The position numbers were made by a program, and so were the translations under genes. A model generated the notes under the pieces. That model worked only from the letters and a program-made list of their open reading frames with translations, had not been told where the DNA came from and did not search any database. Below are positions 1-14,455 of a DNA stretch of 64,000 bases, in pieces. This stretch comes from Sinohyriopsis cumingii. Taxonomy: Eukaryota > Mollusca > Bivalvia > Unionida > Unionidae. Numbering within the stretch: the first letter of the stretch is position 1; each line of letters starts with the position of its first letter. Location: positions 12,916,314-12,980,313 of the forward strand of contig CM068828.1 in assembly GCA_028554795.2 (NCBI GenBank), read 5' to 3'.

Positions 1-3000
1 CATTCATTTGAGAAGAAAGAAGAAGAAAGTAAGAGGCAGAAACGTGATCTATCGCCTCGTACCAGGGCTGAAATCTTGGCACAAATTCATGCCAGTGATT
101 TTGAAGAGGACATGAGTGAACCAGAATTTGAAACCTCTAAACCAAGTTCACCACCCTTAGTCAATCCTGAAAAATACTATTCCATTCGAGAGACGGAAAA
201 GCGCTCCTCTAGAAAATTTAGAACCACGGCTTACACCTACACGGTGAAGTTTAAAGATTTCAAGTCCGACGTACCCTTGGAGAAAGCAGAAGGGTTCATC
301 ACCGAGATGTGGGATTCTTTGCTCACCGCACTCAAGCGACAATGTCAAGCCAAAGAAGACGATCGCTTGACACTATCCATAGATCACGACGGTTTGAAAT
401 CCCCTGTTTGGATCGAGTTTAGCAGACCCGCAGAACTAACCCCTTCCAAAGTCATGGACAAGATTCAACACGTACAACAATCTAATGACCAGTTTGACAT
501 CACCGATGGTAAAGCCACACTGAAAATGGCTCACGTCTCTTCTACTCAAGGGACAGGACGCAAAAAGATGTTATTGGTGGACGACCTTCGCAACACCAAA
601 AAGAGTCTCGTCCGAATTAACAACCCTCAAGACCAGATGTGTTTAGCCCGTGCCATCGTGGTGGGACGAACCTATGCCAACAAGAACGACACGGTAGAAT
701 GGAAAAGAACCTGGAAAACTATTCAACGATGCGATCGAGCCAAACAACGGAACGAAGCAGAACTCCTGTTACAACAAGCCGGACTGTCCAAAGACACACC
801 CTGTGGCATTCCTGAGATGCAAAAATTGCAAGATGCCCTAGCTCCACGCTACACCTTGAAAGTGCACCCTCAAGAAATACGCGGGCCTCTGTTGTTTCGA
901 GGCCAAGAATTTAAGGACGGAAAATACATTCATGTCTATTATCACGATGATTATTTCGATACCATTACCAGTATTACTGGATTCCTGGGATACGGTTATT
1001 ATTGTGAGAAATGTGACCATGGTTATAACAATCGAGAGCAACACAAGCATTGTGGAATGAAATGCCCAGGATGTCTGGCCTCTCCACCCTGTCTGAGCGA
1101 AGGACCAGTGCCTTGTTCAACTTGTCTGCGCACGTTTGTCAGCTCTACCTGTTACCAACAACATTTGAAGACGCAAGGTTCACAGCAGAAATGCGCTTGT
1201 CAACTGCTGAGATTGTGCCCTACGTGTGGACAAGGCATATGTACCAATACCGTCAAGGCACACGTATGTCGAGGAAAGAAAAAATGTCACATTTGTCACC
1301 ACATCGTCGACTTGGAACACCAATGCTACGTGCAAAAATACCAACCCCCACCAGAGAAAGAGGACGGTCACAAGAAGAAAGGCAATTTCATCTTTTTCGA
1401 TTTCGAATGCATGCAAGAGACCGGCATTCACATTCCTAATTTTTGCGTGGCTCATCGAGCATGCGAGAAGTGCATTCAAGAACCTATCTTCAGTCATTGC
1501 CCTCACTGCAGCAAGATTCCTGGAGGACGTGAAAAAATCTTTCGGGGACCGAACACGCTAGCCGATTTTGCCCGATGGGTCTTAGACCCCATCGACAAGA
1601 CGTGGAGCCAAGAGGACATCGAATGTTACGGAGATTGTCATCGTCATGCCACGGTGATGGCTCAAAATTTCTCCGGATACGATGGACAGTTTCTTCTCAG
1701 ATACTATACGGAACAAGGCACCGAACGTCCTAAAGTGATTTTGAACGGAGCCAAAATCATTTTCATGCAAGTGGGACAAGTGCAGTTTAAAGATTCGATG
1801 AGTTACTTGGCCATGCCTTTGAGCCGAATGCCTAAAACGTTTGGAATGACAGAAATGGCTAAAGGTTATTTTCCTCACTTTTTCAATACGGAAGCCAATC
1901 AACATGCCGTTCTACCCCATTTGCCTGAGGCTCACTATTACGACCCCGACAACATGCGTACCGAACAACGAGAAGATTTCTACGCTTGGTACCAGGCTCA
2001 TGCCTCGGACCCCTTCGACTTTCAGGAAGAAATGCTAAAGTATTGTCGTTCCGACGTGGACATTTTACGACGTTGCTGTGGAAAATTTCGAGAACTGTTC
2101 ATGGAACACGGAGGGGTCGATCCTTTGAAAGAAGCTTGCACCATTGCCAAAGCGTGTTGCTTAGTGTACCGGCAACGATTCATGCCTGAAAACACCGTAG
2201 CTGTCATCAGTCCTCAAACGACCAACTATGTCAAAGTTCAATACTCGGTCAAAACCCTACGCTGGTTACATTACTTGTGCGACAAGGAAGACAAATGGAT
2301 TCAGCATGCCCGCAACGGAGGAGGCGAAAAGACCATCGGAACGTATTCGGTCGATGGCTGGGACTTAGAAAACCCCAAGATCGTGTACGAGTTTAACGGT
2401 TGCTTATTTCACGGATGTCCCGTCTGTTACCCTGACCGTGACACTAAAAATCAGTTTTTGCAACGAACCATGGAAGACTTGTACCAGGACACTTGTCAGC
2501 GACGGCTAAAGTTAGAACAGCAAGGATACCAAGTGGTGGAAATGTGGAAACACGAGTACGATCACCGTTTGAAAACCGATCCCGAGTTTAAACGCCTCGT
2601 GGAAAGTTACCAGTTCATGGACCCGTTGAACCCGAGGGATAGTTTGTACGGAGGAAGGATCAATGCCACCTGTTTGCTGTACCAAGCCGACGAAGAGAAA
2701 GGAGAAGAAATCAAATACTTGGACGTGTGTTCGCTGTATCCCTACGTGTGCAAATATTGTCGCTTTCCCGTAGGGCACCCGCAATTGCTGACGGAACACA
2801 TCGACCTGAAAAACATTCGACAATACGAAGGCTTGATCAAGTGTAAAGTTTTGCCTCCCACGAACCTATACCATCCCGTCTTACCTCACCATTGTCAAGG
2901 CAAACTGATGTTTCCCTTGTGCCGTACTTGTGCCGAAACGTGCAACCAGGACCAACCTTGCCATCACAGCCAGGAAGAACGTGCCTTGACGGGAACCTGG

Positions 3001-4050
3001 GTTAGCGTGGAATTGTTCAAAGCTCTGGACATGGGATACCAACTGTTAGAAGTGTACGAAATTTGCCACTTTCCCAAGACACAACAGTACCACAAGGGTG
3101 ACCCTACTCAGAAAGGCATTTTCGCCGACTACGTGGATGCCTTTTTGAAACTGAAACAAGAAGCCAGCGGCTATCCTTCCTGGTGTCACACTCCCGAAGA
3201 CCAAATACAATTCAAAGAGAAATACTACGAACAAGAAGGCATCTCTTTAGACCACATCGAAAAAAACGAAGGCAGGCGATCGTTTGCCAAAGTGATGTTA
3301 AATTGCTTGTGGGGTAAAATGGCACAACGACCGTGTTTACCCAAGACGGAATATTTGACAGAACCTTCCCGCTACTTTCAGATGATTCACGACAAGACCA
3401 AATACACGAAACACGTGGACGTCGTTCGAGAGGATTTGATCTTGGTCAATTACGAAGAAGATCTGGACTTTGTACAAGACGACCCTTTTGGAAATGTCAT
3501 CATTGCAGCTTACGTGACAGCTCATGCTCGCTTAAAATTGTACGAAGCTTTAGAACTGTTAGAAGAACGCGTCCTGTACTTTGACACGGACAGTTGCATC
3601 TACATCCATCACCCGATTCAACATCACCCTGACATCGAAGGAGACCGTTTAGGAGCCTGGACAGACGAGCATCCCGACGACAAGATTCTAAGTTTCGTCA
3701 GTGGCGGCCCCAAAAATTACGGCTACGAATACCGGGACAAACAAGGAGAAGTGCACACGACGTGCAAAGTGAAAGGACTGACTCTGAATCATCGTACCAG
3801 TCGAGTGGTCAACTTTGGTGTATTGAAAGAAGCCTTGCAATCGGGAGAGGATGCAAACTTTAAAGTCACCACCTATCAACCAAACAAGATTGTACGTTTA
3901 CCCACTCACCACATCGTCAGTCGACCCTTGGAAAAAGTCTATCAAATTGTATACCAGAAGCGAGTGCGACTTCCCAATCACTTTACGTTGCCGTACGGTC
4001 ACGTCGGTATTGGTCTGTATATAAAACGGATCCCTAGGCAAAATCGATAG
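1..4050 (+). CDS. polB: protein-primed family B DNA polymerase (5' partial)
   Basis: Replicative DNA polymerase of the Polinton type, expected to start synthesis from a terminal protein and copy the element by strand displacement. The frame is open from base 1, with no stop upstream of the first ATG, so the true start lies left of the window; at least 1,349 codons are visible. Numbering from the codon at 76, the 3'-5' exonuclease motifs are FFDFE (about residue 440), NFSGYD (about 530) and YCRSDVD (about 655). The polymerase motifs are motif A DVCSLYP (about 882), motif B KVMLNCLWG (about 1072) and motif C FDTDS (about 1168). A cysteine/histidine-rich stretch at about 310-415 resembles zinc-binding segments of these long polymerases. 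All catalytic motifs look intact. The stop at 4048-4050 is followed within about 90 bp by the next small gene. Confidence 0.96.
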   Translation, partial: HSFEKKEEESKRQKRDLSPRTRAEILAQIHASDFEEDMSEPEFETSKPSSPPLVNPEKYYSIRETEKRSSRKFRTTAYTYTVKFKDFKSDVPLEKAEGFITEMWDSLLTALKRQCQAKEDDRLTLSIDHDGLKSPVWIEFSRPAELTPSKVMDKIQHVQQSNDQFDITDGKATLKMAHVSSTQGTGRKKMLLVDDLRNTKKSLVRINNPQDQMCLARAIVVGRTYANKNDTVEWKRTWKTIQRCDRAKQRNEAELLLQQAGLSKDTPCGIPEMQKLQDALAPRYTLKVHPQEIRGPLLFRGQEFKDGKYIHVYYHDDYFDTITSITGFLGYGYYCEKCDHGYNNREQHKHCGMKCPGCLASPPCLSEGPVPCSTCLRTFVSSTCYQQHLKTQGSQQKCACQLLRLCPTCGQGICTNTVKAHVCRGKKKCHICHHIVDLEHQCYVQKYQPPPEKEDGHKKKGNFIFFDFECMQETGIHIPNFCVAHRACEKCIQEPIFSHCPHCSKIPGGREKIFRGPNTLADFARWVLDPIDKTWSQEDIECYGDCHRHATVMAQNFSGYDGQFLLRYYTEQGTERPKVILNGAKIIFMQVGQVQFKDSMSYLAMPLSRMPKTFGMTEMAKGYFPHFFNTEANQHAVLPHLPEAHYYDPDNMRTEQREDFYAWYQAHASDPFDFQEEMLKYCRSDVDILRRCCGKFRELFMEHGGVDPLKEACTIAKACCLVYRQRFMPENTVAVISPQTTNYVKVQYSVKTLRWLHYLCDKEDKWIQHARNGGGEKTIGTYSVDGWDLENPKIVYEFNGCLFHGCPVCYPDRDTKNQFLQRTMEDLYQDTCQRRLKLEQQGYQVVEMWKHEYDHRLKTDPEFKRLVESYQFMDPLNPRDSLYGGRINATCLLYQADEEKGEEIKYLDVCSLYPYVCKYCRFPVGHPQLLTEHIDLKNIRQYEGLIKCKVLPPTNLYHPVLPHHCQGKLMFPLCRTCAETCNQDQPCHHSQEERALTGTWVSVELFKALDMGYQLLEVYEICHFPKTQQYHKGDPTQKGIFADYVDAFLKLKQEASGYPSWCHTPEDQIQFKEKYYEQEGISLDHIEKNEGRRSFAKVMLNCLWGKMAQRPCLPKTEYLTEPSRYFQMIHDKTKYTKHVDVVREDLILVNYEEDLDFVQDDPFGNVIIAAYVTAHARLKLYEALELLEERVLYFDTDSCIYIHHPIQHHPDIEGDRLGAWTDEHPDDKILSFVSGGPKNYGYEYRDKQGEVHTTCKVKGLTLNHRTSRVVNFGVLKEALQSGEDANFKVTTYQPNKIVRLPTHHIVSRPLEKVYQIVYQKRVRLPNHFTLPYGHVGIGLYIKRIPRQNR
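4018..4026 (+). promoter_or_regulatory. TATA-like box inside the polymerase 3' end
   Basis: TATATAAAA overlaps the last codons of the polymerase, 51 nt before the ATG at 4077 and 110 nt before the ATG at 4136. The first spacing matches that of the other TATA boxes in this element, so it is a plausible promoter for the small downstream gene(s). Confidence 0.45.
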
Positions 4051-4076
4051 TTCATTGTTCATTGAAGTAACTTACC

Positions 4077-4184
4077 ATGTCGTTGACGAAGAAGAAACCA
4101 GATTGGTTTGGCTTGAACCCAAGAGGTGACCCAGTATGCACGAGAGTTATTCAAGGAAAAAAGTTACTTTTCAACCTGTGTTAG
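4077..4184 (+). CDS. small 35-aa ORF overlapping the membrane-protein gene
   Basis: This is the first ATG (ACCATG context) after the TATA-like box at 4018. It encodes 35 residues beginning MSLTKKKPDWFG and overlaps the start of the membrane-protein ORF at 4136 in a different frame. I recognise no family. It could be a short regulatory upstream ORF, a real micro-protein, or chance. Its placement at the standard promoter-to-ATG distance is the only positive evidence. Confidence 0.3.
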   Translation: MSLTKKKPDWFGLNPRGDPVCTRVIQGKKLLFNLC

Positions 4185-4429
4185 TGACGGTGCCAGAAGA
4201 ACCCGTCACCCAGGACAGGACTGTCGTGGACAGGCCTGAAAGACCCTTTCGGGAGGACACTTGTGTGACCTTACCCCATACTATAGAACTGGTTACAACT
4301 TTACCCAAAACATGTGGTTGTTGTACAGACACTTGTTTTTATTCCACGTTCATGGTTATCATGTGCTTTTTATTCTTGTACTTATGCCTTTGGCTTTTAT
4401 GTATTTTTGTCTTTCGTATTCATGTTTGA
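4136..4429 (+). CDS. small C-terminally anchored membrane protein
   Basis: A 97-residue protein with a hydrophilic N-terminal part (about residues 1-60, rich in Thr, Val, Pro and charged residues), a CGCC cysteine cluster near residue 62, and one long hydrophobic segment (about 70-93: MVIMCFLFLYLCLWLLCIFVF). The layout suggests a tail-anchored or single-pass membrane protein. No family is recognised. It lies between polymerase and ATPase and ends 8 nt before an AATAAA signal, consistent with its own transcript. The ATG at 4136 is the only one that keeps this frame; an earlier ATG at 4077 is in another frame. Confidence 0.6.
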   Translation: MHESYSRKKVTFQPVLVTVPEEPVTQDRTVVDRPERPFREDTCVTLPHTIELVTTLPKTCGCCTDTCFYSTFMVIMCFLFLYLCLWLLCIFVFRIHV

Positions 4430-4436
4430 AACATTC

Positions 4437-4442
4437 AATAAA
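4437..4442 (+). terminator. polyadenylation signal AATAAA
   Basis: AATAAA starts 8 nt after the stop codon of the small membrane protein and just before the TATA box of the ATPase, so it would separate the two transcripts. Confidence 0.5.
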
Positions 4443-4457
4443 CGTGTTCTGAAAAAG

Positions 4458-4465
4458 TATATAAA
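4458..4465 (+). promoter_or_regulatory. TATA box of the ATPase gene
   Basis: TATATAAA sits 47 nt before the ATPase ATG at 4512 (context CACCATGG), in the short space between the AATAAA signal at 4437 and the coding sequence. Confidence 0.6.
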
Positions 4466-4511
4466 CTCTTGTTTTGTTTGTTTTCGTGTCACAAGTGACA
4501 TTTCTCACACC

Positions 4512-5255
4512 ATGGCTACCTCTGCTGTCTCTGCTCCCTCTTCCTCTACTGTCAAAGTCATCGACGAACACTTAGATCGTGCCAGTTGGGAGGCTTTGTA
4601 TCTTCGCCATCCTTTTAACATGATCATTGCTGGACCTAACGGTTCAGGCAAAACCGAATTCGTCAAACGTTTGATCGAACATAAACATCATTTGATCGAT
4701 CGGCCACCTCAACGGATCGTGTGGTGTTACAAAGAGTGGCAATCGGCGTACAACCTCTTGCGAGAAAGTCAAGGCGATTCCATCGTGTTTGTGGAAGGCA
4801 TTCCTAAAGAAGACGACGGCATCGTCTCTGACTCCCGTCAAACCCATTTGGTCATTTTCGACGACATGTTAGGAGAAGACGAAGAAGAAATTAAACTGTG
4901 GTTCACGCGTAAAGGGCATCACCGTAATGCCAGTGTCGTTTACATCACCCAAAATTTGTTTCAACAAAGTAAAGCCCATCGCACCATCAGTCTCAATGCG
5001 CATTACGTGGTCTTGTTTAAAAGCCCTCGAGATAAATCGCAAGTGCAAGTCTTAGCCAAACAGTTAGGAACGCCTTGGCTGACTCAGGCGTACGACGATG
5101 CCACTCAAATTCCACACGCCTATTTACTCGTCGATTTGAAACCTACGACTCCCGAGGATTTACGATTTCGTACCCACTTGTTTCACCACTGGTGCCAAGA
5201 CGGAGGGCCTGTCCTGTACACGTCTCCGTCCTCGACTTCATTTCACTCCCCATAA
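4512..5255 (+). CDS. A32/FtsK-HerA-type genome-packaging ATPase
   Basis: A 247-residue P-loop ATPase expected to pump element DNA into preformed capsids. The Walker A motif GPNGSGKT is at residues 41-48 and the Walker B motif VIFDD at about 114-118. A following segment (VVYITQNLFQQ, about 140-150) matches the sensor region of this family. Length and motif spacing fit poxvirus A32-like ATPases found in Polintons, adintoviruses and virophages. The ATG at 4512 is chosen because it has a strong CACCATGG context, lies 47 nt after a TATA box, and the sequence before it in frame is non-conserved. The stop at 5253-5255 is followed at once by the TATA box of the next gene. Confidence 0.93.
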   Translation: MATSAVSAPSSSTVKVIDEHLDRASWEALYLRHPFNMIIAGPNGSGKTEFVKRLIEHKHHLIDRPPQRIVWCYKEWQSAYNLLRESQGDSIVFVEGIPKEDDGIVSDSRQTHLVIFDDMLGEDEEEIKLWFTRKGHHRNASVVYITQNLFQQSKAHRTISLNAHYVVLFKSPRDKSQVQVLAKQLGTPWLTQAYDDATQIPHAYLLVDLKPTTPEDLRFRTHLFHHWCQDGGPVLYTSPSSTSFHSP

Positions 5256-5263
5256 AAAAAATC

Positions 5264-5270
5264 TATAAAA
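5264..5270 (+). promoter_or_regulatory. TATA box of the basic core-protein gene
   Basis: TATAAAA lies 9 nt after the ATPase stop and 48 nt before the ATG at 5312, repeating the spacing seen for the ATPase gene. Confidence 0.6.
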
Positions 5271-5311
5271 ACCTCAGACCCTTTTTCGTCTGTCTCACTC
5301 TCAGTGCGAAC

Positions 5312-6256
5312 ATGACGTCCCTTCAGTCGCATCTTCCCGTCAAATTGATTCGTGCCTTGTATGGCATCAGTCGAGAAAAGGATCCACAAACACGAGCTCG
5401 TGTCTTAGAAGCTAGTCTCAAAGAAGTCTTACGATGGTTCACGGTGACGGCACGTCAATTACTCCAAGGAATCATTCAGATTCCTCATCAAACCAAACGC
5501 TTTTTTGATCGAAGCAAAGTCGCTTTGGTCCAACTGGCCGATCCCCGCATCGACACTCAAACCAAAAGACAAATCATTTTGAAACCTGGAGGGAGCGGTA
5601 CTCTAGGAGGGGTCATCATTCGCTCACTCTTAAGATGGGATCCTAATGCCCCCAAAGTTATCCCCAAGACAAAAGTCCAACGAAGCCCCAAGAAGAAAAA
5701 GACCAGGTGCCCAAGGAGAACTTCTCCAGTGGCAGGACCCTCCTCTGACCAGACACCACCCCGGAAAAAGAAAAGAAGCCCCCAGAAAAAGAAACAGAGA
5801 AAAAGTCCCCAGAAAAAGAAAAGTCCACAGAAGAAAACTAGTCGCAAGAGAGGCACTTCGGCCAGGACGCAACCTTACACTCGCAAACCACGATCTGCCA
5901 CGTCGGTGACTGTGTCTCCGGCAGCCTCACGTTTATCCACTTCTCCGTTGATGACACCAGGAACTGAAGAGTACTTGGAGACGTTGATCACACCAAGAAC
6001 TTCTCCGTTGATGACCCCAAAAAGAACTTCCCCAGTGGCAGGACCCTCCAATTTAGTGGCAGTGGCTGCTGCTCACAAAGTACCTTCTCCCAAAATCAAA
6101 GTCCATGAAAGATCGGGCATGTTACAAAGTTTACTGGATTTGTCCAAGCAAGAACTGGCTCGATTTAGTCCGTTGCGTACCCCTGCACGACGTGTCATGC
6201 CTGTCCTCAAACTGATACGCCGTAAAGACAATCAGTGGCGACGCGTTCCAGTATAA
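5312..6256 (+). CDS. basic virion-core candidate with Lys/Arg/Ser/Pro-rich middle
   Basis: A 314-residue protein in three parts. Residues about 1-110 form a helical domain ending in a glycine-rich hydrophobic segment (KPGGSGTLGGVIIRSLL). Residues about 115-195 are very basic, with repeated SPQKKK and KKK blocks that would bind DNA. The rest contains short repeats such as TSPVAGPS (twice) and SPLMTP (twice), then a conserved-looking C-terminus. Residues 38-94 align without gaps to residues 47-103 of the next protein, so the two look like paralogues. A role in packing DNA inside the particle is inferred from composition and place, not from a known domain. The stop codon (6254-6256) lies inside the next gene's TATA box. 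Confidence 0.8.
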   Translation: MTSLQSHLPVKLIRALYGISREKDPQTRARVLEASLKEVLRWFTVTARQLLQGIIQIPHQTKRFFDRSKVALVQLADPRIDTQTKRQIILKPGGSGTLGGVIIRSLLRWDPNAPKVIPKTKVQRSPKKKKTRCPRRTSPVAGPSSDQTPPRKKKRSPQKKKQRKSPQKKKSPQKKTSRKRGTSARTQPYTRKPRSATSVTVSPAASRLSTSPLMTPGTEEYLETLITPRTSPLMTPKRTSPVAGPSNLVAVAAAHKVPSPKIKVHERSGMLQSLLDLSKQELARFSPLRTPARRVMPVLKLIRRKDNQWRRVPV

Positions 6257-6258
6257 AA
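6252..6258 (+). promoter_or_regulatory. TATA box overlapping the upstream stop codon
   Basis: TATAAAA contains the TAA stop of the preceding gene and lies 64 nt before the ATG at 6316. The following bases (AAGGCC) are shared with the TATA-like box at 6698. Confidence 0.55.
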
Positions 6259-6315
6259 AAGGCCTGTGACCAAGTAGGGTATCAGTGTTTTTTTGGTGCT
6301 CCTGAAGACTCAAAG

Positions 6316-6702
6316 ATGTCACCCTCCAGAAAACCCCAAGGAATGAAAAGGAAAGAACTACCACCACGTTTAGCCAAACATGGGGACATGTTATCTGTCC
6401 TGTCCAAAGCTTCTCCACCCCTACGAAAAAAACTCATTCAAACAGCCTCCAAAGAGGTCATCGATACCGTGTGCGAATGTTGTTTGAATGTTTTGAAAGG
6501 CACGATCCCTTTGTCCAAACACCAGAAACAATGCTTAGGCAAACATCGTCACGTTCTTCGCCAAATGGTTCGAAAGAAAATTCCCATTCTTCAAAAAAAG
6601 AAGATGTTAGTGCAACGTGGAGGCATTTTGCCTCTCTTGTTAGGCCCCATACTGAAAGGAGTCTTGGGAACCATGTTGGGAGGACTGGTGCGAGCAAGAT
6701 AA
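6316..6702 (+). CDS. small basic core/membrane-active candidate, paralogue of the preceding protein
   Basis: A 128-residue basic protein. Residues about 40-105 form a helical domain with a CECC cluster near residues 53-56 and a basic stretch ending in QRGG; the last 25 residues (ILPLLLGPILKGVLGTMLGG) are hydrophobic and glycine-rich, like a membrane-active or virion-core peptide. I recognise this as a small protein often seen in Polinton/adintovirus loci, compared by some to adenovirus core or cement peptides; the exact role is not known to me. The ATG at 6316 is used rather than a non-ATG extension to 6235, because the TATA box at 6252 lies inside that extension. The stop overlaps the next TATA-like box. 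Confidence 0.8.
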   Translation: MSPSRKPQGMKRKELPPRLAKHGDMLSVLSKASPPLRKKLIQTASKEVIDTVCECCLNVLKGTIPLSKHQKQCLGKHRHVLRQMVRKKIPILQKKKMLVQRGGILPLLLGPILKGVLGTMLGGLVRAR

Positions 6703-6706
6703 AAAG
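6698..6706 (+). promoter_or_regulatory. TATA-like box overlapping the upstream stop codon
   Basis: AGATAAAAAGGCCC contains the TAA stop of the preceding gene (6700-6702) and shares ATAAAAA-GGCC with the box at 6252. It lies about 50 nt before the ATG at 6752. Confidence 0.4.
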
Positions 6707-6751
6707 GCCCTCGGAAGTCCCAAGATCTCAGAATCGACCCCTGACAACCCC

Positions 6752-7468
6752 ATGGAAGGACGAAAACTAGCTTTAGTGCCTTACAAACGATGGATGGAAT
6801 ACCATCGGTGGCAAGAACAACGCACCCCGCATTTACCTCCCAATCCCAATTTGAGCGAGATGTCCCAGTTACAACACAAATTACAGTCCTTGATGGATCG
6901 CCAAGATTTGTCCGAAACAGAAAAATCGCAAATGTACGGCCAACTCTTGCAACGACTGCAACTCTTTCACCAGAAAGCTTTAGACGAAACAGCTCTACCC
7001 ACTTTGAAAGATTTTAAGACCTTGATGAAAAGTCCAGCACCATCATTATTACCACCACCACCACCACCACTACCACTACTACCATCCCCAGGGGTCACCA
7101 GAGATGCTACCTCACGAAGACCTGAGGAAGAAGAGATGCGAGAAGTGTTTCAAACACCGTCAGCAGCTCCCATTTCAAGTAAGATTGCAGCATCCTTGCT
7201 GACACCGTGCCCCACACCCCAACGAGAAGAAATGAAAGCTTGGGTTAAAAAGATGATGTCCACTCCTCCTTCGACAGAAGTGAAAAAGAAAGAAGGGAAA
7301 CCAGAAGCGAAAAAAGAAAAGAAAACCAAAGCCATTCCATTGCCACCTCCACCTCCACCACTACCTTCGACTTCTACTCCCGTAGCCCATCGGACACGTA
7401 AATCCGTTTCCAAACCACCCTTCCGTCCCACCCAAAGTAACATCACCGAAGAGTGGGTGACTTATTAA
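6752..7468 (+). CDS. proline-rich protein with conserved N-terminal helical domain, unknown role
   Basis: A 238-residue protein. The N-terminal third starts MEGRKLALVPYKRWMEY and includes a likely helical segment (LQHKLQSLMDRQDLSETEKSQ) of a type I associate with small Polinton proteins of unknown function. The middle and end carry polyproline tracts (about residues 100-112 and 194-202), a lysine-rich stretch (about 175-192) and a basic C-terminus. The low-complexity parts suggest a disordered scaffold or tail rather than an enzyme. It ends 10 nt before the integrase start, so the two may share a transcript. Confidence 0.72.
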   Translation: MEGRKLALVPYKRWMEYHRWQEQRTPHLPPNPNLSEMSQLQHKLQSLMDRQDLSETEKSQMYGQLLQRLQLFHQKALDETALPTLKDFKTLMKSPAPSLLPPPPPPLPLLPSPGVTRDATSRRPEEEEMREVFQTPSAAPISSKIAASLLTPCPTPQREEMKAWVKKMMSTPPSTEVKKKEGKPEAKKEKKTKAIPLPPPPPPLPSTSTPVAHRTRKSVSKPPFRPTQSNITEEWVTY

Positions 7469-7478
7469 CACACAAAAA

Positions 7479-8588
7479 ATGGAAAAAGTCTTAGCCAGCA
7501 TTTACTACGATCCCTCCCATCCTGCAGGTTACGCAGGAGTTCAAAAATTGTATCGTGCTGCTAAAACTCGACTGAAAAGTCTCCGTTTACCTCAAGTGCA
7601 ACGATGGTTACAAAAACAAGCTACCTACACTTTACACAAACCCATTCGACGCAAGTTTGCCAGAAGTCGCACCCGAGTGGAAGGCATCGATCATCAATGG
7701 CAAGCCGATTTAGCCGATGTCTCTCATTTGGTCAGCTACAATCGTGGCTACAAATATTTGTTTTGTGTCATCGACGTCTTTTCCAAATTTGCCTGGGTCG
7801 TGCCCTTGACTTCCAAATCCAGCAGCGAGTTAGTGCGAGCCCTGCAACGGGTGCTGAAACAAAGCGGTCGTCACCCTCTTCGATGGCAAACGGACAAAGG
7901 TACCGAATTTCTGAACCAAGCTTTCCAAAAAGAATTAAAGAAACGTGACGTTCATTTTTTTACCACCGAGAATCCCGAAACCAAAGCCAGCATCGTGGAA
8001 CGTTTTCAACGCACTTTGAAAGAACGCATGTGGAAATATTGTACGCATCACCACACTCTGAAGTACATCGACATCTTACCGCACCTGGTGCAAGCGTACA
8101 ACCAATCTTACCATCGAAGCATTGGACGTGCCCCGCAAGACGTGACTCCCGACAACGAAGTGTTGGTGTTTGAGTGTCTGTTTGGTACGTCCCTGACGAG
8201 GGCTGTCCCCAAGAAAAGTGGAGACTTGGCCGTAGGAGATTGGGTGCGCATTGGTAAAACCAAACGCACTTTCGACAAAGGTTACTTACCTAACTGGACG
8301 ACCGAATTGTTTCGCGTCACTGGACGAGTGCATGGCCGTCATCCTGCCGTCTATAAATTGGAAGACATGAACGGAGAAGTGCTCAAAGGAACGTTTTATT
8401 TGCCCGAGTTACAATGTGTCACCAAAAAGGAAGACGACGTGTACGACATCGAAAGCATTCTCGAACGCAGAACCCGTAAAGTGGGCAAACGACGTGTCAA
8501 AGAAGTCAAAGTACGTTGGAAAGGATATCCGCCCAGTTTCGATTCTTGGATCGACGCTTCGCAAGTCATCGATTATAAAAAGAAGTGA
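7479..8588 (+). CDS. int: retroviral-type integrase with C-terminal chromodomain
   Basis: A 369-residue DDE-family integrase that would join the element's ends to host DNA. The catalytic triad is D77 (QADLADV), D139 (QTDKGTEF) and E174 (SIVERF), giving exact D,D35E spacing. An N-terminal helical region (YYDPSHPAGYAG) precedes the core. Residues about 321-365 form a chromodomain (YDIESILE, then VRWKGYPPSFDSWI), the module that in chromoviruses and some Polintons reads histone methyl-lysine marks and steers insertion. No stop or frameshift is visible. The start follows the preceding gene by 10 nt with AAAAAATGG context, and there is no clear separate TATA box. Confidence 0.95.
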   Translation: MEKVLASIYYDPSHPAGYAGVQKLYRAAKTRLKSLRLPQVQRWLQKQATYTLHKPIRRKFARSRTRVEGIDHQWQADLADVSHLVSYNRGYKYLFCVIDVFSKFAWVVPLTSKSSSELVRALQRVLKQSGRHPLRWQTDKGTEFLNQAFQKELKKRDVHFFTTENPETKASIVERFQRTLKERMWKYCTHHHTLKYIDILPHLVQAYNQSYHRSIGRAPQDVTPDNEVLVFECLFGTSLTRAVPKKSGDLAVGDWVRIGKTKRTFDKGYLPNWTTELFRVTGRVHGRHPAVYKLEDMNGEVLKGTFYLPELQCVTKKEDDVYDIESILERRTRKVGKRRVKEVKVRWKGYPPSFDSWIDASQVIDYKKK

Positions 8589-8593
8589 CCATC

Positions 8594-9013
8594 ATGCCCT
8601 TTCACACATCAGACGCAGCTACGTCGACCACTCCTCCTTCACCCAGTTCTTCTGTGCAAGAGTTACAAAAACAACCCTTGTGGGTGTGGTGTGGAGAACG
8701 TGTGCCTAAAACGCAAATCGTCTTTTTCTGCCAAATCTTCGTGGTGTATTGTGTCATCGGGGCAGCCATCGCCAATTTGAGTTTGCAACAAGGAGACAAA
8801 TAATTGTGGACCATTTTATTGAGCAGTTGCATCGGTTACCTGCTTCCTAATCCCTCCCTGAAATTCACCTCGAACGGGAACCCCGGGAACCTTGTGTCCA
8901 GTGCCAGTGCCAGTCACTACTCCAACCACAACCAGAACCCCATTTTGAGCGGAGACACGCCTCTGACGTCCATTAATAACCCCTCGGACAGCCACAGAAC
9001 TCTGGAATTATGA
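8594..9013 (+). pseudogene. small two-helix membrane protein split by an in-frame stop
   Basis: The first part (8594-8803, ATG at 8594) encodes a Ser/Pro-rich head and one hydrophobic helix (QIVFFCQIFVVYCVIGAAIA). A TAA at 8801-8803 ends it. The same frame then stays open to 9013 and starts with a second hydrophobic stretch (ILLSSCIGYLLPNPSL) that, as I know this small Polinton family, belongs to the same protein. The downstream part has no early ATG, and its stop overlaps the next gene's start (ATGA at 9010). The simplest reading is a nonsense mutation between the two membrane segments. A truncated one-helix product or readthrough cannot be excluded. Confidence 0.72.
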
Positions 9014-9933
9014 GTCACCAAAACCAATTTTACTTAACCTTACCCAGTGACAGTTCCATGGAGGTGTTTCCCCACAACACGTTATGCTGTTACACGGCCA
9101 AATTACCTCAGGCTATCCCCTTAGATCACGAAGCCCATTGGGAAGTGGCTTTAGTAGAAATCATTCACCCGACCCAAGTCCTCAATGTCCTTCCCAATGA
9201 AAATTTTTTTGATGTGGAAGTTCATGACGAGCAAATGCAACAGTGGATGGATAGCAATGTCAAATATGACAAGAAAACCCGTACACAAAAGTACACCACC
9301 TATCACTTGTTCATTCCCCCAGGCTATTATTTTAGTGGTCAACGTTTGGTCAGCACCATAACCTCCAGGTTTAATGTCGTGTTTCTGAAAGCTTTGGAGC
9401 ATGTCAACAAAAATGTCACCCTGGAGTACCACAAAGCAGCTCGTCGCTTCTTGATGAAATTTGAACGGAGTAAAATCCTGTCCATTTTATTTTGTCCTGA
9501 ATTGTTTGACATGTTGGGCGGAGACATGAACATGAGAAAGACCATGATCAAGAAAAACGAATTACCCATCGTTTACGACAACGAGTCTTTTAGCAAGTTA
9601 TTTCGTGCCCCGGTAGAACTGAACCAAGGACTGAATTTGATGTTTGTGTACTCCGATGTGGTGGAGTATAACGTGGTGGGACACACCTCCGTACCGTTAC
9701 TGCGTGTCATTCCTTTCAAAGTAGATTCTGCCACGGACGCTGACGAGGAAGGTGGAAACACTTACCACGTTCACCGCGAATTTGTCCATCCTCACTATTT
9801 GCCGGTCAGCAAGTCGTATTTGGACACGGTCAACATTGCTATAAAAGGAGAGCTGGGACAAAATATTCCATTCACCAAAGGAAAAGTCACGGTGAAACTC
9901 CATTTTCGAAAACGGTTCTCTCACGACTCGTAA
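9010..9933 (+). CDS. penton-like minor capsid protein candidate
   Basis: A 307-residue protein, mostly beta-rich by eye, opening with QNQFYLTLPSDSSMEVFPHN and then WEVALVEIIHPTQ. This opening pattern is characteristic of the minor capsid (penton-type) protein of Polintons and adintoviruses. It would form the five-fold vertices of an icosahedral particle with a single jelly-roll fold; the fold is inferred from the family, not shown by the bases. The ATG overlaps the stop of the preceding frame (ATGA), and the next gene starts 7 nt after its stop, so these late genes are tightly packed. The frame is intact. Confidence 0.82.
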   Translation: MSHQNQFYLTLPSDSSMEVFPHNTLCCYTAKLPQAIPLDHEAHWEVALVEIIHPTQVLNVLPNENFFDVEVHDEQMQQWMDSNVKYDKKTRTQKYTTYHLFIPPGYYFSGQRLVSTITSRFNVVFLKALEHVNKNVTLEYHKAARRFLMKFERSKILSILFCPELFDMLGGDMNMRKTMIKKNELPIVYDNESFSKLFRAPVELNQGLNLMFVYSDVVEYNVVGHTSVPLLRVIPFKVDSATDADEEGGNTYHVHREFVHPHYLPVSKSYLDTVNIAIKGELGQNIPFTKGKVTVKLHFRKRFSHDS

Positions 9934-9940
9934 GTAAGTC

Positions 9941-10339
9941 ATGTATCCAGTGTACCGAGGGGTTGCTCGACAGCGAGGACACGGTTTAGGAGACATGTTA
10001 AAATCGGCCTTTCGTTCGGTGGCCCCAATGTTGAAACCGATGGTGACACGCGGATTGCACGCCTTGAAAGATGCGGCACTGACGCAAGGCAAAGAATTTC
10101 TCCAAAATGTCATCATCGACAAACAAAACCCTAAAGAAGCCTTCATGAGGGCAGGCAAAAATGTCTTGCTGCAAACGGGTAAAGACATTTTGGGCCGACA
10201 AGACACACCTATAAATGCCCTGCACGCTACCGAGTCAGGCATTCAGCAAGGACAAGGCAGAAAGAGACGACGAAAAAACACCCTTTCACCAGACTTCAAG
10301 CGAGAAAGGCCAAGAAAAGAAGAACCGTTCGAGACTTAG
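9941..10339 (+). CDS. small basic core or membrane-active virion protein candidate
   Basis: A 132-residue protein between the two capsid genes. It begins MYPVYRGVARQRGHGLGDML, followed by amphipathic helices (about residues 18-85) and a very basic tail (KRRRKN, then ERPRKEE). The Gly-rich N-terminus next to an amphipathic helix recalls adenovirus precursor proteins such as pVI or pX that disrupt membranes or bind DNA, but I see no decisive motif. The position between minor and major capsid genes supports a structural role. It starts 7 nt after the preceding stop. Confidence 0.68.
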   Translation: MYPVYRGVARQRGHGLGDMLKSAFRSVAPMLKPMVTRGLHALKDAALTQGKEFLQNVIIDKQNPKEAFMRAGKNVLLQTGKDILGRQDTPINALHATESGIQQGQGRKRRRKNTLSPDFKRERPRKEEPFET

Positions 10340-10371
10340 ACGTTTTCGATTATTGAGTAAAGAGACAAAAA

Positions 10372-11685
10372 ATGATGCACCGAGAATCTTGCACTTGTTC
10401 CAAGACGGAACTGGATCTGTTTGCCATGCCCCCCACGATGATGACCATGCAAGAATCCCAATGGGTGGAATTTCACCCCGTCTCCTCACTGACCGATTCC
10501 GCTCCCATCGAGTTTGAAATCAAAGGACAGCCCGAAGATTACATCGATCTGAATAGCAGTTACTTGTACCTGAAAGTCAAAATTCTAGATAAGACTGGAG
10601 GTGCTATAGACGATGAAGCAGTAGCTCCCGTCAACAATTTCATGCATTCCTTGTTCAGTGGAGTGGACTTGTACTTGAATAACAAACTGGTCAGTAGCAG
10701 CATGGATACTTACCCTTATCGTGCTTACCTGGAAAATCTCTTGACATACGGAATAGATGCCAAGAACACTCATCTCAATGCCTGTGTGGTATGGGAAGCT
10801 GACGAACCTACCAAGTTTGAACTATTGGAATCTGATGAAAAGAAAGACAACAATGATGGATTTCTAGAACGAAGAAAGAGAATCACGGGAGCCGACACAA
10901 GTTTAGAACTGATGGATCGTTTGCATTTGGACATGTGGTTGCAAGAAAAGTATTTGCTGAACGGAGTGGATGTCCGCCTGAGACTGAATCGTAGCAGTGC
11001 CGCTTTCCATTTGATGGCTGATAGTGACGGTTACAAAACCAAAATCCTAGAAGCCAGACTCTACGTACGCCGTGTGGAAGTGTTACCTAAAGTGGGAAAC
11101 GACATCAGTCAAACATTGAGCAGAACAACCGCCAAGTATCCCATACGACGCGTGGAAGTGAAAACCTTCACCATTCCCAAGGGACAGCGATCCATGATCG
11201 AAGATCATCTGTTCCAAGGACAGTTACCCAAACGTTTGATCGTTGGTATCGTCGAGAATACAGCCTTCAACGGAGCTGCCGAAAAAAATCCTTTCTACTT
11301 TCAACACTTTGGCTTGTCCAAAATCGAAGTCAGTCGCGATGGCAAGACCTTGTGTACCCGACCTTTCGAGCCTGACTTTACCAAGAAGAATTACTTGAGA
11401 TCGTACTTGTCCCTGTACGAAGCCACCGGACAGTTAGGAACCAATACCAGTCACGGTATTACGTACGAGGATTATGCAGGAGGTTACGCTTTGTGGCCTT
11501 TCGATTTCACTCCAGACCAAGGCAGCGACGAGGGACATTTCCACCCTATAAAATCCGGCCAGATTCGTGTGGAAATTCAGTTTAAAGACCGAGACCCTGA
11601 TGAAACGGTGAACGTCATCCTGTATGCCGAATTTGATAATACGATAGAAATCAACAGTTTGAGAGAAGTCATTCTAGATTACTAG
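10372..11685 (+). CDS. major capsid protein candidate (double jelly-roll type)
   Basis: A 437-residue beta-rich protein beginning with a Cys-containing leader, then MMTMQESQWVEFHPVSSL and IEFEIKGQPEDYIDLNSSYL. Later landmarks are a segment near LPKRLIVGIVENTAFNG, NPFYFQHFGL, and a C-terminal stretch containing VNVILYAEFDNTIEI. These match the protein family often annotated as F54H12.2-like in invertebrates, which I take to be the Polinton/adintovirus hexon-type capsid protein. It would form the trimeric capsomers. Two adjacent ATGs (10372 and 10375) are both possible starts. The frame is intact. It is followed by an AT-rich duplicated region with AATAAA signals rather than by another gene. 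Confidence 0.85.
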   Translation: MMHRESCTCSKTELDLFAMPPTMMTMQESQWVEFHPVSSLTDSAPIEFEIKGQPEDYIDLNSSYLYLKVKILDKTGGAIDDEAVAPVNNFMHSLFSGVDLYLNNKLVSSSMDTYPYRAYLENLLTYGIDAKNTHLNACVVWEADEPTKFELLESDEKKDNNDGFLERRKRITGADTSLELMDRLHLDMWLQEKYLLNGVDVRLRLNRSSAAFHLMADSDGYKTKILEARLYVRRVEVLPKVGNDISQTLSRTTAKYPIRRVEVKTFTIPKGQRSMIEDHLFQGQLPKRLIVGIVENTAFNGAAEKNPFYFQHFGLSKIEVSRDGKTLCTRPFEPDFTKKNYLRSYLSLYEATGQLGTNTSHGITYEDYAGGYALWPFDFTPDQGSDEGHFHPIKSGQIRVEIQFKDRDPDETVNVILYAEFDNTIEINSLREVILDY

Positions 11686-11736
11686 AAGCCATGGAAGACT
11701 GTTATTCCTCTTTACCTAGTGGAGAAGCTTTTAGTG

Positions 11737-11916
11737 TTGGATTATTGTTAAAAAATGTTAGAGTTGTTGTTGTTTAGTGTTAAGTGATTTTTGAATAAAA
11801 AATGTTGTGTTTTGAAAAAATTGTTTGATGTTATTTTGTTGGATTATTGTTAAAAATGTTAGAGTTGTTGTTTAGTGTTAAGTGATTTTTGAATAAAAAA
11901 TGTTGTGTTTTGAAAG
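11737..11916 (+). repeat. duplicated AT-rich 3' region with two AATAAA signals
   Basis: A block of about 80 bp (TTGGATTATTGTTAAAAATG, then TTAAGTGATTTTTGAATAAA) occurs at 11737-11817 and again at 11839-11916. Each copy contains AATAAA (11794-11799 and 11892-11897), so this is most likely the duplicated poly(A) region of the major capsid gene. From here to 12,010 I see no gene. Confidence 0.75.
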
Positions 11917-12011
11917 AAATGCCTTTGTCTTTTGTTTAGCTATAAGAATGTTGGATTGATGCTCTTTCATTTCTTACTATCCCTCTAAACGTTGCGACTC
12001 AAAAACTGTGT

Positions 12012-12050
12012 GGGGGATGTTTTCCTTCACGTCCGCGCTTTGACTTTAAG
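12012..12050 (+). promoter_or_regulatory. shared promoter block, copy 1
   Basis: GGGGGATGT, then CCTTCACGTCCGCGCTTT, then a degenerate TATA position (GACTTTAAGAA). The same block recurs at 12881 and 13619, each time shortly before a small charged ORF. Its TATA-like part is the weakest of the three. The ORF ATG at 12105 follows about 60 nt after the TATA position. Confidence 0.7.
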
Positions 12051-12104: not shown

Positions 12105-12326
12105 ATGTACTCCAAACTAGCTAAGCTCAACGAAGCCTATGTGAATTTGCATAGGGTCAGACACAGTCTGATACCGAAGCCAGAAGAAATAGAGAATGTG
12201 AGAATGTTAAAAATCACTGAAGACCTGATAGAAGAGCTCTTCAGAGAAGAAATGAACAGGGAAAAAGAAGAATGGACAGAGAAGTACAGACTTCAGAGAC
12301 AGCAGCAACAGCAGCAACAACAATAG
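12105..12326 (+). CDS. accessory charged protein 1, probably truncated by TAG in a Gln tract
   Basis: The ATG at 12105 opens a 73-residue protein: an N-terminal helical segment (MYSKLAKLNEAYVNLHRVRH), a Glu/Lys/Arg-rich coiled-coil-like middle and a C-terminal polyglutamine tract. The tract ends at a TAG (12324-12326), but CAG/CAA codons continue in the same frame beyond it, and that frame stays open to a TAA at 12459-12461, 36 nt before the stem-loop at 12498. In the two sister genes the stop-to-stem-loop distances are 31 and 63 nt, so this TAG is probably a CAG-to-TAG change that shortens the original gene. No family outside this trio is recognised. Confidence 0.55.
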   Translation: MYSKLAKLNEAYVNLHRVRHSLIPKPEEIENVRMLKITEDLIEELFREEMNREKEEWTEKYRLQRQQQQQQQQ

Positions 12327-12497
12327 CAGCAGCAACCTGAAGCTGACAGAGGCTTTGTCGATTGCCGTATCGACACCAAAGATTTCTTCTTCTCTTTCCG
12401 AAGAAGCAGACCTATTGCCAGAAAGTCTATAATCAGAGGACATCGCATTCTTAGAAACTAAAAAAGAATGCCATAGTAAACAAAAAAAAAAAAAAAC

Positions 12498-12540
12498 AGC
12501 CCTTTTCAGGGCTACCCCAATACTCTAGAAAAGAAATAAC
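12498..12540 (+). terminator. histone-type 3' processing signal, copy 1
   Basis: AGCCCT-TTTC-AGGGCT (12498-12513) is a perfect 6-bp stem with a 4-nt TTTC loop, the size and loop of the metazoan replication-dependent histone stem-loop. It has an AACA 5' flank and an ACCCCA 3' flank. Thirteen nt downstream lies the purine-rich AGAAAAGAAA (12527-12536), placed like a histone downstream element for U7 snRNA. AATAAA at 12579-12584 could serve as a backup. Confidence 0.72.
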
Positions 12541-12880
12541 AATCCATTTGCCAATGTGTGTAGGTAGAGTAGTGTGAAAATAAACACTAACTCTTTTTTA
12601 AAAAAATGTGAGGGCATGTGTTTGTGTGTTTGTGTTTGTAAGTGGTTAAGTAGGTTGGTATGGATAGTAGATTAAAATGATGTCTTTTTTTTTGGTGTTT
12701 CAGGTGTAGATTAGGAGTTAGATTGGATTGCTTTGCGTATGTGGATAGTCTATTGAAGTGATTTATAAAAAATTTTAAAATAGTGATGGGTAGCATAAAA
12801 AAGTGAGTGAGTGTTTCTTTTAGGTCGGCGCGTTGTTTCTTTTGGTCATGATTTAGGTAAGATTAATTTTATGTTTTTTA
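12541..12880 (+). other. AT-rich spacer between accessory units 1 and 2
   Basis: No ORF is supported. The first 60 bp (CCAATGTGTGTAGGTAGAGT and following, to CACTAACTCTTT) are repeated after the second stem-loop at about 13,420-13,470, so they belong to the duplicated unit. The rest is T/G-rich and unremarkable. Confidence 0.6.
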
Positions 12881-12920
12881 GGGGATGTTTTCCTTCACGT
12901 CCGCGCTTTCACTATAAATT
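12881..12920 (+). promoter_or_regulatory. shared promoter block, copy 2
   Basis: GGGGATGTTTT, CCTTCACGTCCGCGCTTT and a clear TATA box (CACTATAAATT) about 67 nt before the ATG at 12979. Nearly identical to copies 1 and 3 over about 30 bp, while the sequence between copies differs, which argues for functional constraint or gene conversion. Confidence 0.75.
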
Positions 12921-12978
12921 GAAACTCGCTGGGCAGTCTAGCTACCCTTGTTGATTGATCAACACCACCACCAGAAGA

Positions 12979-13341
12979 ATGAACACGAGATTGGTTAAAA
13001 TGTTGGAACTTCATGTGCATCTGGAATATGCCAGGCGCCTGTTGAATGAACTGGCCGCGGAAGCCATTGTGGAAGACGGAAGGATAAGAGAGGAGGAGGA
13101 AAGAAGAAATAAAGAAATGGAGGAAAGAAAATATAAAGAAGAGGAGGAGAGAAGAAAGAAAGAAGAAGAAGAGGAGGAGGAAAAGGAGAGAAGAAGAAGA
13201 AGAAATTTCAGAATCCCAGAGAGCGAAAATTGGGATTCTGAAGCCACATATCCTGCCTCTGCTCTCACCCCCAAAAAGGTAAAAAGTAACTGGGGGATAA
13301 GATGTGTATGTGGCGCCAGGCCTGGAAGGTGCCACCATTAA
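12979..13341 (+). CDS. accessory charged protein 2
   Basis: A 120-residue protein from the ATG at 12979. The N-terminal helical segment (NTRLVKMLELHVHLEYARRL) has the same heptad-like pattern as its neighbours. A long Glu/Arg/Lys run (about residues 37-75) would form a charged single helix or coiled coil. The tail contains NFRIPESENWDSE and ends with CVCGARPGRCHH. It sits between promoter block 2 and stem-loop 2, with 31 nt from stop to stem. I recognise no family; its charge and coiled-coil nature would suit a structural or binding role, but this is a guess. Confidence 0.62.
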   Translation: MNTRLVKMLELHVHLEYARRLLNELAAEAIVEDGRIREEEERRNKEMEERKYKEEEERRKKEEEEEEEKERRRRRNFRIPESENWDSEATYPASALTPKKVKSNWGIRCVCGARPGRCHH

Positions 13342-13372
13342 CCAGGTGCCCATGAAGTTCCAAACAAAAAAC

Positions 13373-13410
13373 AGCCCTTTTCAGGGCTTCCTAATACTCT
13401 AGAAAAGAAA
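13373..13410 (+). terminator. histone-type 3' processing signal, copy 2
   Basis: AGCCCT-TTTC-AGGGCT (13373-13388) repeats the perfect 6-bp stem and TTTC loop of copy 1, again with an ACA 5' flank, and a purine-rich AGAAAAGAAA at 13401-13410. The 3' flank differs slightly (TCCTAA). The AATAAA found downstream of copy 1 is changed here (AATATAAA). Confidence 0.72.
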
Positions 13411-13618
13411 TAACGATCTATTTGCCAATGTGTGTAGGTAGAGTAGTGTGAATATAAACACTAACTCTTTATTGATAGTGCGAGTGTATGTGTTCATGTG
13501 TTTGTGTTTGTGAATGTTAAAGGAAGTTTGTGTGAATAGTAGATTATGGGTTTCTTTATTGTTTCTTAGCGTATGTGGAGAGTATAGTTTGGGTTTGATT
13601 ATATGAAATGAGAAAAGT

Positions 13619-13658
13619 GGGGGGTGTTTTCCTTCACGTCCGCGCTTTCAGTATAAGA
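13619..13658 (+). promoter_or_regulatory. shared promoter block, copy 3
   Basis: GGGGGTGTTTT, CCTTCACGTCCGCGCTTT and TATA-like CAGTATAAGAA, about 47 nt before the ATG at 13698. Confidence 0.73.
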
Positions 13659-13697
13659 ACCCACCACGTTCGTCGTTGGAACCATTCTACAAAGAAG

Positions 13698-14042
13698 ATG
13701 GCTTCTAACCAAATGGACAAAATACAAACCTTGCAAGACGTTTTAGACAACTTAGGAATAATGGAACAGATGCTAATAAGACTCGTTGAAGACCATTATT
13801 CCTATAGTTCCCATCGTGTAAAGATGGAAATTAATAACTTAAGAAAAGCAAAGGACAAGATTAGTGGTGTAATGAAAGAGATAAAGGAGGAGAAGGAGGA
13901 TGAAGAGGAAAGAATAAGAATACGCAAATGGAACGAAAAAATTGAAAAAGAAGAAGAAAATGAAAAGAGGAAGAAAGAAGAGGAGGAAGAGAAGAAGAAA
14001 GAAGAGGAGGAGAAGAAAAAAAGAAAGAGAAGAAGAGTGTAG
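13698..14042 (+). CDS. accessory charged protein 3
   Basis: A 114-residue protein from the ATG at 13698 (AAGATGGC context, first ATG after the promoter block). The first 60 residues form helical segments (MDKIQTLQDVLDNLGIMEQM), followed by an extended Glu/Lys/Arg run to the end (KKKRKRRRV), which could act as a nuclear-localisation-type basic tail. Together with the genes at 12105 and 12979 it forms a family related by layout and flanks more than by residues. No outside family is recognised. Confidence 0.62.
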   Translation: MASNQMDKIQTLQDVLDNLGIMEQMLIRLVEDHYSYSSHRVKMEINNLRKAKDKISGVMKEIKEEKEDEEERIRIRKWNEKIEKEEENEKRKKEEEEEKKKEEEEKKKRKRRRV

Positions 14043-14105
14043 GAGATAAAATAAGAACTTGGTGGAGAAAAAGAAGAAATTAGAAGAAGAAGAAGAAAAC
14101 CCAAA

Positions 14106-14145
14106 AGCCCTTTTCAGGGCCAGCCATATTTCTCGAAAAGAGATA
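14106..14145 (+). terminator. histone-type 3' processing signal, copy 3
   Basis: GCCCT-TTTC-AGGGC with an outer A-C mismatch (14106-14121) keeps the 5-bp core stem and TTTC loop. A purine-rich GAAAAGAGAT at 14135-14144 occupies the downstream-element position. The surrounding sequence differs from copies 1 and 2, so the stem-loop is conserved better than its context. Confidence 0.66.
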
Positions 14146-14164
14146 GCCTTTCAATTGCCTACCC

Positions 14165-14235
14165 CTTTTTTAAATTTAAATTTAAATTTAAATTTAAAAA
14201 AAACGTTTTTTTAAAAAAAAAATCCCAAACTCTAT
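14165..14235 (+). repeat. (TTTAAA)n and A/T tracts near the element's right end
   Basis: Four to five TTTAAA units and A/T homopolymers separate the last accessory gene from the 45-bp repeat array. Low-complexity AT tracts of this kind are common in subterminal DNA, but I cannot assign a function. Confidence 0.6.
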
Positions 14236-14236
14236 T

Positions 14237-14455
14237 CCCCATGTTAATTTCCCCTTGTCGCTAGACAGACCCACACTATAGTTCCATGTTAAATTCCCCT
14301 TGTCGCTAGAGTGACCCACGATTTATTCCCCATGTTAATTCCCCTTGTCGCTAATCTGACCCACGATTTTTCTCCATGTTAAATTTCCATTGTCGCTAAT
14401 CGTTCCCAGGGGGGGGGTCTGTAATGCTAATTCCCATTGTCACTAATGTATCCCT
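14237..14455 (+). repeat. five degenerate ~45-bp direct repeats, probable subterminal array
   Basis: CCATGTTAATTTCCCCTTGT, then CGCTAG and a CAGACCCAC-like part, recurs at about 14239, 14284, 14330, 14374 and (most diverged) 14427, a period of 44 to 55 bp. It appears nowhere else in the window. Its place just past the last gene fits a terminal repeat of the Polinton, but the matching left end is not in the window. Confidence 0.7.

Follow-up and report, generated by a model that had tools for sequence, protein, structure and literature searches.

What are the end signals of histone mRNAs doing behind genes that encode no histone? In the window, as we call the whole 64 kb stretch of Sinohyriopsis cumingii DNA analysed here, three small genes at the right end of a Polinton are each followed by a hairpin with a TTTC loop, and the sequence-only reading of this stretch had taken these hairpins for histone-type 3' ends. 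According to the available text of PMC6303110, with a similar statement in that of PMC12775136, histone mRNAs alone among known animal protein-coding mRNAs end in a stem-loop and not in poly(A). Our literature search, which covered titles and abstract openings and few subscription papers, found no account there of Polintons, transposons or viruses with 3' ends or promoters of the histone type. From the sequence evidence set out below, we consider it probable, at roughly 0.83, that the three right-end genes, together with two left-end ones, bear the regulatory signals of replication-dependent histone genes, and that they would give rise in S phase to non-polyadenylated mRNAs processed by SLBP and U7.

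A decayed Polinton and the hairpins behind its small genes

The element that covers this part of the window is a Polinton, about 16.7 kb in size and decayed. The window begins inside it, and its left end, which lies outside the window, was read as a separate locus, L093; the size of the element follows from its two terminal inverted repeats, the right one at 14097..14454 in the window (no strand assigned) and the left one at L093:764-1034. The identification as a Polinton, already made in the sequence-only reading, holds, because in addition to these repeats the element contains, all on the + strand, an open frame with a packaging ATPase (4287..5255; PF04665, Pox_A32), an integrase with rve and chromodomain (7461..8588; PF00665, PF00385) and an open frame for the Polinton major capsid protein (10357..11685). 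The capsid frame has 1,208 homologs, and among the best 120 of these those that carry an animal name are 'F54H12.2-like' proteins of bivalves. The type B DNA polymerase is present as a relic only (2263..2613, + strand), which matches at 34% an open frame of the distant Polinton contig L089 that itself matches PF03175; ten open pieces taken alone matched no polymerase family. We regard the window's copy as decayed because it retains no long polymerase frame and because its gene 1 is interrupted by an in-frame stop. No clear 6-bp target duplication was seen in the element flanks when these were read by eye. Past the gene 3 signal and before the end of the element, the terminal repeat contains an array of ~45-bp repeats (TTCCCCTTGTCGCTA...) at window 14224-14398.

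The three small genes all lie on the + strand. Gene 1 (12105..12326) comprises the first 73 codons up to an in-frame TAG, beyond which the frame, read by eye, stays open until a TAA at 12459-12461; gene 2 (12979..13341) encodes a charged protein of 120 aa, and gene 3 (13698..14042) a Lys/Glu-rich protein of 114 aa. None of the small proteins has a convincing Pfam or PDB family (gene 1 has no Pfam match at all), and, having no Pfam histone match, the genes encode no histone. Their hairpins lie on the same strand and begin at 12498, 13373 and 14106, as first reported. Behind gene 1 (12498..12513), AGCCCT-TTTC-AGGGCT forms a 6-bp stem with a TTTC loop and is followed by ACCCC; behind gene 2 (13373..13388), the same hairpin is followed by TTCC and not by ACC; and behind gene 3 (14106..14121), the hairpin, which sits within the right terminal inverted repeat, is indeed a 5-bp version (AGCCCT-TTTC-AGGGCC) with A.C at its base and AGCC as its flank, the ACC flank being lost in two of the three (at 13389 and 14122). 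Measured by eye, stop and stem are 31 nt apart in gene 2, 63 nt in gene 3 and, through the extended frame, 36 nt in gene 1, which agrees with the 31 to 63 nt given before; from the in-frame TAG of gene 1, ending at 12326, the distance is 171 nt. The purine-rich stretch reported downstream is also there: an HDE-like element on the + strand, AGAAAAGAAA behind genes 1 and 2 (12527..12536 and 13401..13410) and GAAAAGAGAT behind gene 3 (14135..14144), starts 12-13 nt past the stem at all three hairpins. CTAGAAAAGA, part of the HDE evidence for gene 1, is also found in the 3' ends of host H3, H4 and H2B.

When 2.6 kb were compared with 4,227 families by cmscan, the histone stem-loop family RF00032 was returned for the three hairpins with E = 1.1e-5, 3.2e-4 and 3.1e-3. 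The histone covariance model, suggested earlier as a test, returns all three, but none reaches the gathering cut-off of 34 bits: the scores are 29.3 bits for gene 1 (12493-12537), 22.7 for gene 2 (13368-13413) and 25.4 for gene 3 (14101-14146), and across the whole window there were 0 RF00032 matches at that cut-off. Perfect matches to CCCTTTTCAGGG number 3 in the 64 kb and fall exactly at the three hairpins; with up to 3 mismatches there are 33 in the window, as many as in shuffled sequence (mean 34.3). Compared with shuffles, the hairpins fold with z of -2.5, -2.3 and -2.7, 5, 6 and 3 of 200 shuffles folding as well. The hairpins at 12498 and 13373 are parts of a 112-nt repeat pair with 84% identity, and the third resembles them over 57 nt with 70% identity.

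Two further small genes, c and d, stand at the left end of the element. The stem-loop behind gene c (L093, - strand) scores 23.7 bits with RF00032, below the cut-off, and that behind gene d (L093, + strand) scores 41.2 bits, over it, bringing the total for the element to five, one in each terminal inverted repeat and three internal. Gene d has relatives in other datasets (20 proteins, 55-88%), and no relatives of either gene d or the capsid were found among the viral contigs. Adjoining gene d on the minus strand, at L093:2350-2860, is a gene in which two zinc-knuckle-like CxxC...H...C motifs can be made out by eye. In the gene 3 and gene d forms (window 14101-14146; L093:2084-2128), the purine element can pair with its own 5' spacer, and such folding might hinder U7 or hide the element from it.

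Histone-type promoters and the histone genes of the host

Three findings go beyond the sequence-only reading, namely the two left-end hairpins, the status of the window's copy as a decayed member of its family, and the presence of histone-type promoters. An H1/H2B-type promoter element, GATGTTTTCNNTCACGTCCGCGC, matches three times in the window, once before each small gene and each time on the + strand: with 0 mismatches at 12016..12038 (gene 1) and at 12884..12906 (gene 2, with TATAAA just downstream), and with 1 mismatch at 13623..13645 (gene 3, with a TATA-like box downstream). In 100 shuffles it had 0 matches, and from this and the RF00032 E-values we rejected an explanation by chance hairpins. 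Upstream of gene 2 there is in addition an H4-type promoter element (12814..12832, + strand) that is one base off the host's TTTCTTTTAGGTCCGCGCG; gene 2 combines two histone promoter types in one gene, the H4-type upstream of the H1/H2B-type. TTTCTTTTAGGTCCGCGCG itself is exact in three other copies of the element (L029, L034 and L050). When up to 2 mismatches are allowed, the H1/H2B-type motif is found at least once in 13 of 13 loci with right-end genes, and the other 17 of the 30 loci are without it, as are the two left-end genes of L093.

The host's own histone genes provide the closest comparison. They lie in tandem repeats of ~8.3 kb, and the repeat that we read (L094) holds H3, H4, H2B, H2A and H1, each followed by a stem-loop (RF00032 35.0-39.4 bits) and by a GAAAAG core 13 or 14 nt behind the stem, the value for H4 being taken by eye because the script had chosen an earlier purine run. 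The Polinton small genes are like these genes in their 6-bp GC-rich stem, in their GAAAAG core at 13-14 nt and in their short 3' spacer, and the two share promoter sequences as well: GATGTTTTCNNTCACGTCCGCGC is exact twice in the host repeat, in the H2B and H1 promoters, and TTTCTTTTAGGTCCGCGCG is that of host H4. At L094:3533-3552, upstream of H2A, a near copy of the H1/H2B promoter element stands in reverse orientation. The loop is TTTC in nearly all element copies seen, whereas the host histone genes have TTTC, TTTT or TTTA, and the flank is ACCC in the element as compared with ACAC, ACAA, ATAC or ACTT in the host histone genes. Unlike host histone genes, the element genes have no histone product, are borne by a Polinton and are dispersed over the genome.

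The resemblance continues for some distance behind the stem. Over the following 46 nt, the likeness of d to H2A, of c to H3, and of g1, g2, g3 and d to H2B exceeded that of all 500 shuffles; others among the 25 comparisons did not do so (e.g., 217 of 500 shuffles reached the score for g3 against H4 and 115 of 500 that for d against H1). This likeness fits a capture from a histone gene, although it is no proof of one. Elsewhere, positions 1-12000 of the element showed no similarity to the histone repeat at E<=0.01, and 49.5 kb of host flank gave one simple-sequence stretch, matching the repeat at two places. The signals were most likely taken from the histone genes of a mollusc host.

The signals across the genome

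A search of the 2.9 Gb genome with RF00032 yielded 589,472 first-look candidates, and the 75 that were scored are the best of this large set and no fair sample of it. All 75 exceed the cut-off (69 score 42.6-45.6 bits, the other 6 score 34.5-36.5 bits), and each follows a small gene of this Polinton family on its coding strand, with 0 behind histone genes. That host histone genes might be hidden among these matches was considered and rejected: the first 30 loci contained 0 of 9 histone peptide motifs, and for each of the other 45, when element genes were set against host histones, the best match was an element gene. The family copies share the structure and consensus of RF00032 (Histone3) behind genes that are not histones, and the window's copy, with its three hairpins below the cut-off, belongs in decayed form to a family in which the best copies outscore the five genes of the host histone repeat (42.6-45.6 versus 35.0-39.4 bits).

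A set of 32 sequences (30 loci, L093 and the window) yielded 63 stem-loops with at most 3 mismatches, and each of the 63 follows a gene of one of six types: c, d, e, g1, g2 or g3. In the reverse test, starting from the genes, a stem-loop was found behind 20 of 20 c genes, 5 of 5 e, 1 of 1 g1 and 9 of 9 g3; behind 17 of 19 d genes, the misses (L041 and L055) being 3'-truncated gene matches; and behind 13 of 13 g2 genes, 11 with at most 3 mismatches and two (L032 and L048) with 4. Because most c, e and g3 genes had served as search anchors, only d and g2 provide a fair test. Intact frames mostly end 15-36 nt before the stem, with some outliers. The sequences show that six non-histone gene types are followed by a histone stem-loop with an ACCCA-type flank and by a purine-rich HDE at the host's spacing.

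One could instead regard the hairpin as a DNA-level part of the element, be it a feature of the terminal repeats or a replication or packaging signal, that merely resembles the histone signal, since each terminal inverted repeat does contain one stem-loop. We consider this very unlikely. Three of the five stem-loops are internal, which excludes a pure terminal-repeat feature, and every one of the 63 examined is on the coding strand behind a gene; moreover, the asymmetric parts of the signal, which are the ACC flank and the purine element at 13 nt, have their match in host histone genes, as do the promoters.

The signals are far more numerous than the genes they resemble. The exact motif of stem, ACC and purine element occurs 29,227 times in the genome, as against 662 first-look candidates for host histone genes, and the exact promoter motif occurs 31,228 times; the reversed pattern of each occurs 0 times. 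The first 100 of the 31,228 promoter sites, all from the opening 6.7 Mb of a single contig, form 44 same-strand clusters, in which most spacings are close to 690 or 860 and comparable with those of the window, and 48 of the 100 have a listed exact stem-loop no more than 900 nt downstream on the same strand (median 480), compared with 0 on the opposite strand. Scaled up, the clustering suggests more than 10,000 Polinton right ends, which implies a very large Polinton expansion, to an estimated >10,000 copies. The histone-type 3' signal first proposed for three genes is present in the family at high copy, and it agrees with that of the host histone genes in its stem, its class of loop, its spacing and its downstream element.

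Mean pairwise identity in the five gene types aligned is 0.96-1.00 for the stem-loop, a value inflated by the choice of copies by score or by at most 3 mismatches, 0.89-1.00 for the ACCCA flank and 0.84-0.93 for the HDE, compared with 0.73-0.92 at 31-100 nt upstream, where most of the sequence is coding, and 0.60-0.87 farther downstream. In gene d, the HDE shows no excess conservation (0.91 versus 0.92 in the upstream stretch), and in g3 it stands at 0.88 versus 0.90 just before the stem. The 33 non-anchor stem-loops have 6 pairs in 27 cases and 5 pairs in 6, with a TTTC loop in 32, ACC following in 26 and the purine core in all 33. In the element copies the core lies 13 nt behind the stem in 58 of 63 and 14 nt behind it in 1, the strict pattern failing in 4 of 63; the anchored copy L030 lacks the GAAAAG core, and L031 has the core with an altered end behind. 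In an alignment of 25 sequences, five of them the host histone genes, 12 have G-C as the outer pair, 7 have A-U and 1 has G-U, and in 5 these positions are unpaired. Pairing is found in 96% of cells, and 0 of 500 shuffles reach that value or the covariation score, in a comparison that leaves sequence relatedness uncontrolled; 2 pairs are changed on both sides, a number reached by 30 of 500 shuffles, and there are 4 pair types, reached by 495 of 500.

These figures bear on whether histone flanks were captured once and have since been copied along as passive relics with no current role. Such relics would be in keeping with the relatedness of the copies by descent, with the decay of the window's copy, seen in the in-frame stop of gene 1 and in the A.C pair at 14106, and with an HDE that in d and g3 is not conserved above all neighboring stretches. 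However, the stem-loop exceeds the stretches 30-100 nt away in all five aligned gene types (a difference inflated by copy selection), the outer pair has changed on both sides, and the stem-loop has been kept on all small gene types seen. We therefore give the relic explanation even less credence than a DNA-level role.

Related Polintons were searched for the same signal. Copies of this family across the genome have it; in four distant Polinton contigs (L089-L092; 8-21 kb, possibly incomplete), RF00032 matched nowhere at E<=0.05, and the H1/H2B-type promoter motif was absent even with 4 mismatches allowed. One of them, L089, which was binned with a tubeworm symbiont genome, resembles the window's Polinton in having PolB, packaging ATPase, integrase and capsid in the same gene order. 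All four come from bacterial MAGs (Escarpia and Bathymodiolus symbiont bins, and two further ones), where they are probably contamination by animal DNA. Among viral contigs, 28 contain AGCCCTTTTCAGGGCT and look unrelated because they have no ACC flank; the patterns GGCYCTTTTCAGRGCCACC and GATGTTTTCNNTCACGTCCGCGC occur 0 times in the viral contigs.

Expression of the element genes

The reading that best accommodates these observations is that the Polinton captured both ends of histone genes, as a result of which its genes would make SLBP/U7-processed, non-polyadenylated and probably S-phase mRNAs; the small genes may thus work like replication-dependent histone genes although they are not histone genes. 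Under such circumstances, host SLBP and the U7 snRNP would cut the small-gene pre-mRNAs just behind the stem, leaving no poly(A), and transcription, stability and translation of the small genes would track S phase (or the histone-rich setting of germ cells and early embryos), the time at which the element is able to replicate. SLBP/U7 processing, the missing poly(A) and S-phase expression are what we infer from the signals. As regards the host factors, a search with RF00066 pointed to three weak places (the best at 29.3 bits, E 0.27, below the cut-off) and to no convincing U7 gene. A search for SLBP gave 0 matches and is uninformative, as exons were searched singly and the control had no match anywhere.

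Alternatively, the stem-loop could be bound by SLBP, or act in translation or export, on mRNAs that are mostly polyadenylated further on. AATAAA occurs 66 nt behind the stem of gene 1 and also behind both left-end genes (at L093:2327 for gene d and, on its own strand, at ~L093:929 for gene c), so the use of poly(A) by these genes is possible, and histone mRNAs can themselves be polyadenylated in non-dividing cells. Against this, the + strand between the gene 2 stem and the right end of the element contains neither AATAAA nor ATTAAA, and the downstream element has been kept at the host's spacing. We consider polyadenylation of this kind improbable, although it is the alternative to which we would give the most weight.

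If the small genes are indeed processed in the manner of histone mRNAs, the capsid gene, which has AATAAA downstream at 11794 and 11892 as first reported, would take the ordinary poly(A) route, and the element would run two expression programmes. We think it likely, with somewhat less confidence than we have in the signals themselves, that a Polinton lineage has made its own genes at both ends into histone look-alikes that would be co-transcribed with the host histone genes, perhaps in the histone locus body, and processed by SLBP and U7 without poly(A). Because the element signals far outnumber the host histone genes, they might compete with them for SLBP and U7.

If this is true, there would be a class of animal non-histone mRNAs with histone-type processing, and thousands of histone-style genes in a mobile element would be an exception to the rule that the stem-loop belongs to histones only. 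It would show how a DNA element can tie its expression to S phase, and it would explain such transcripts escaping RNA-seq that selects for poly(A). The many copies would also form a natural sequence set that could reveal which portions of the histone promoter and of the 3' signal are important in molluscs.
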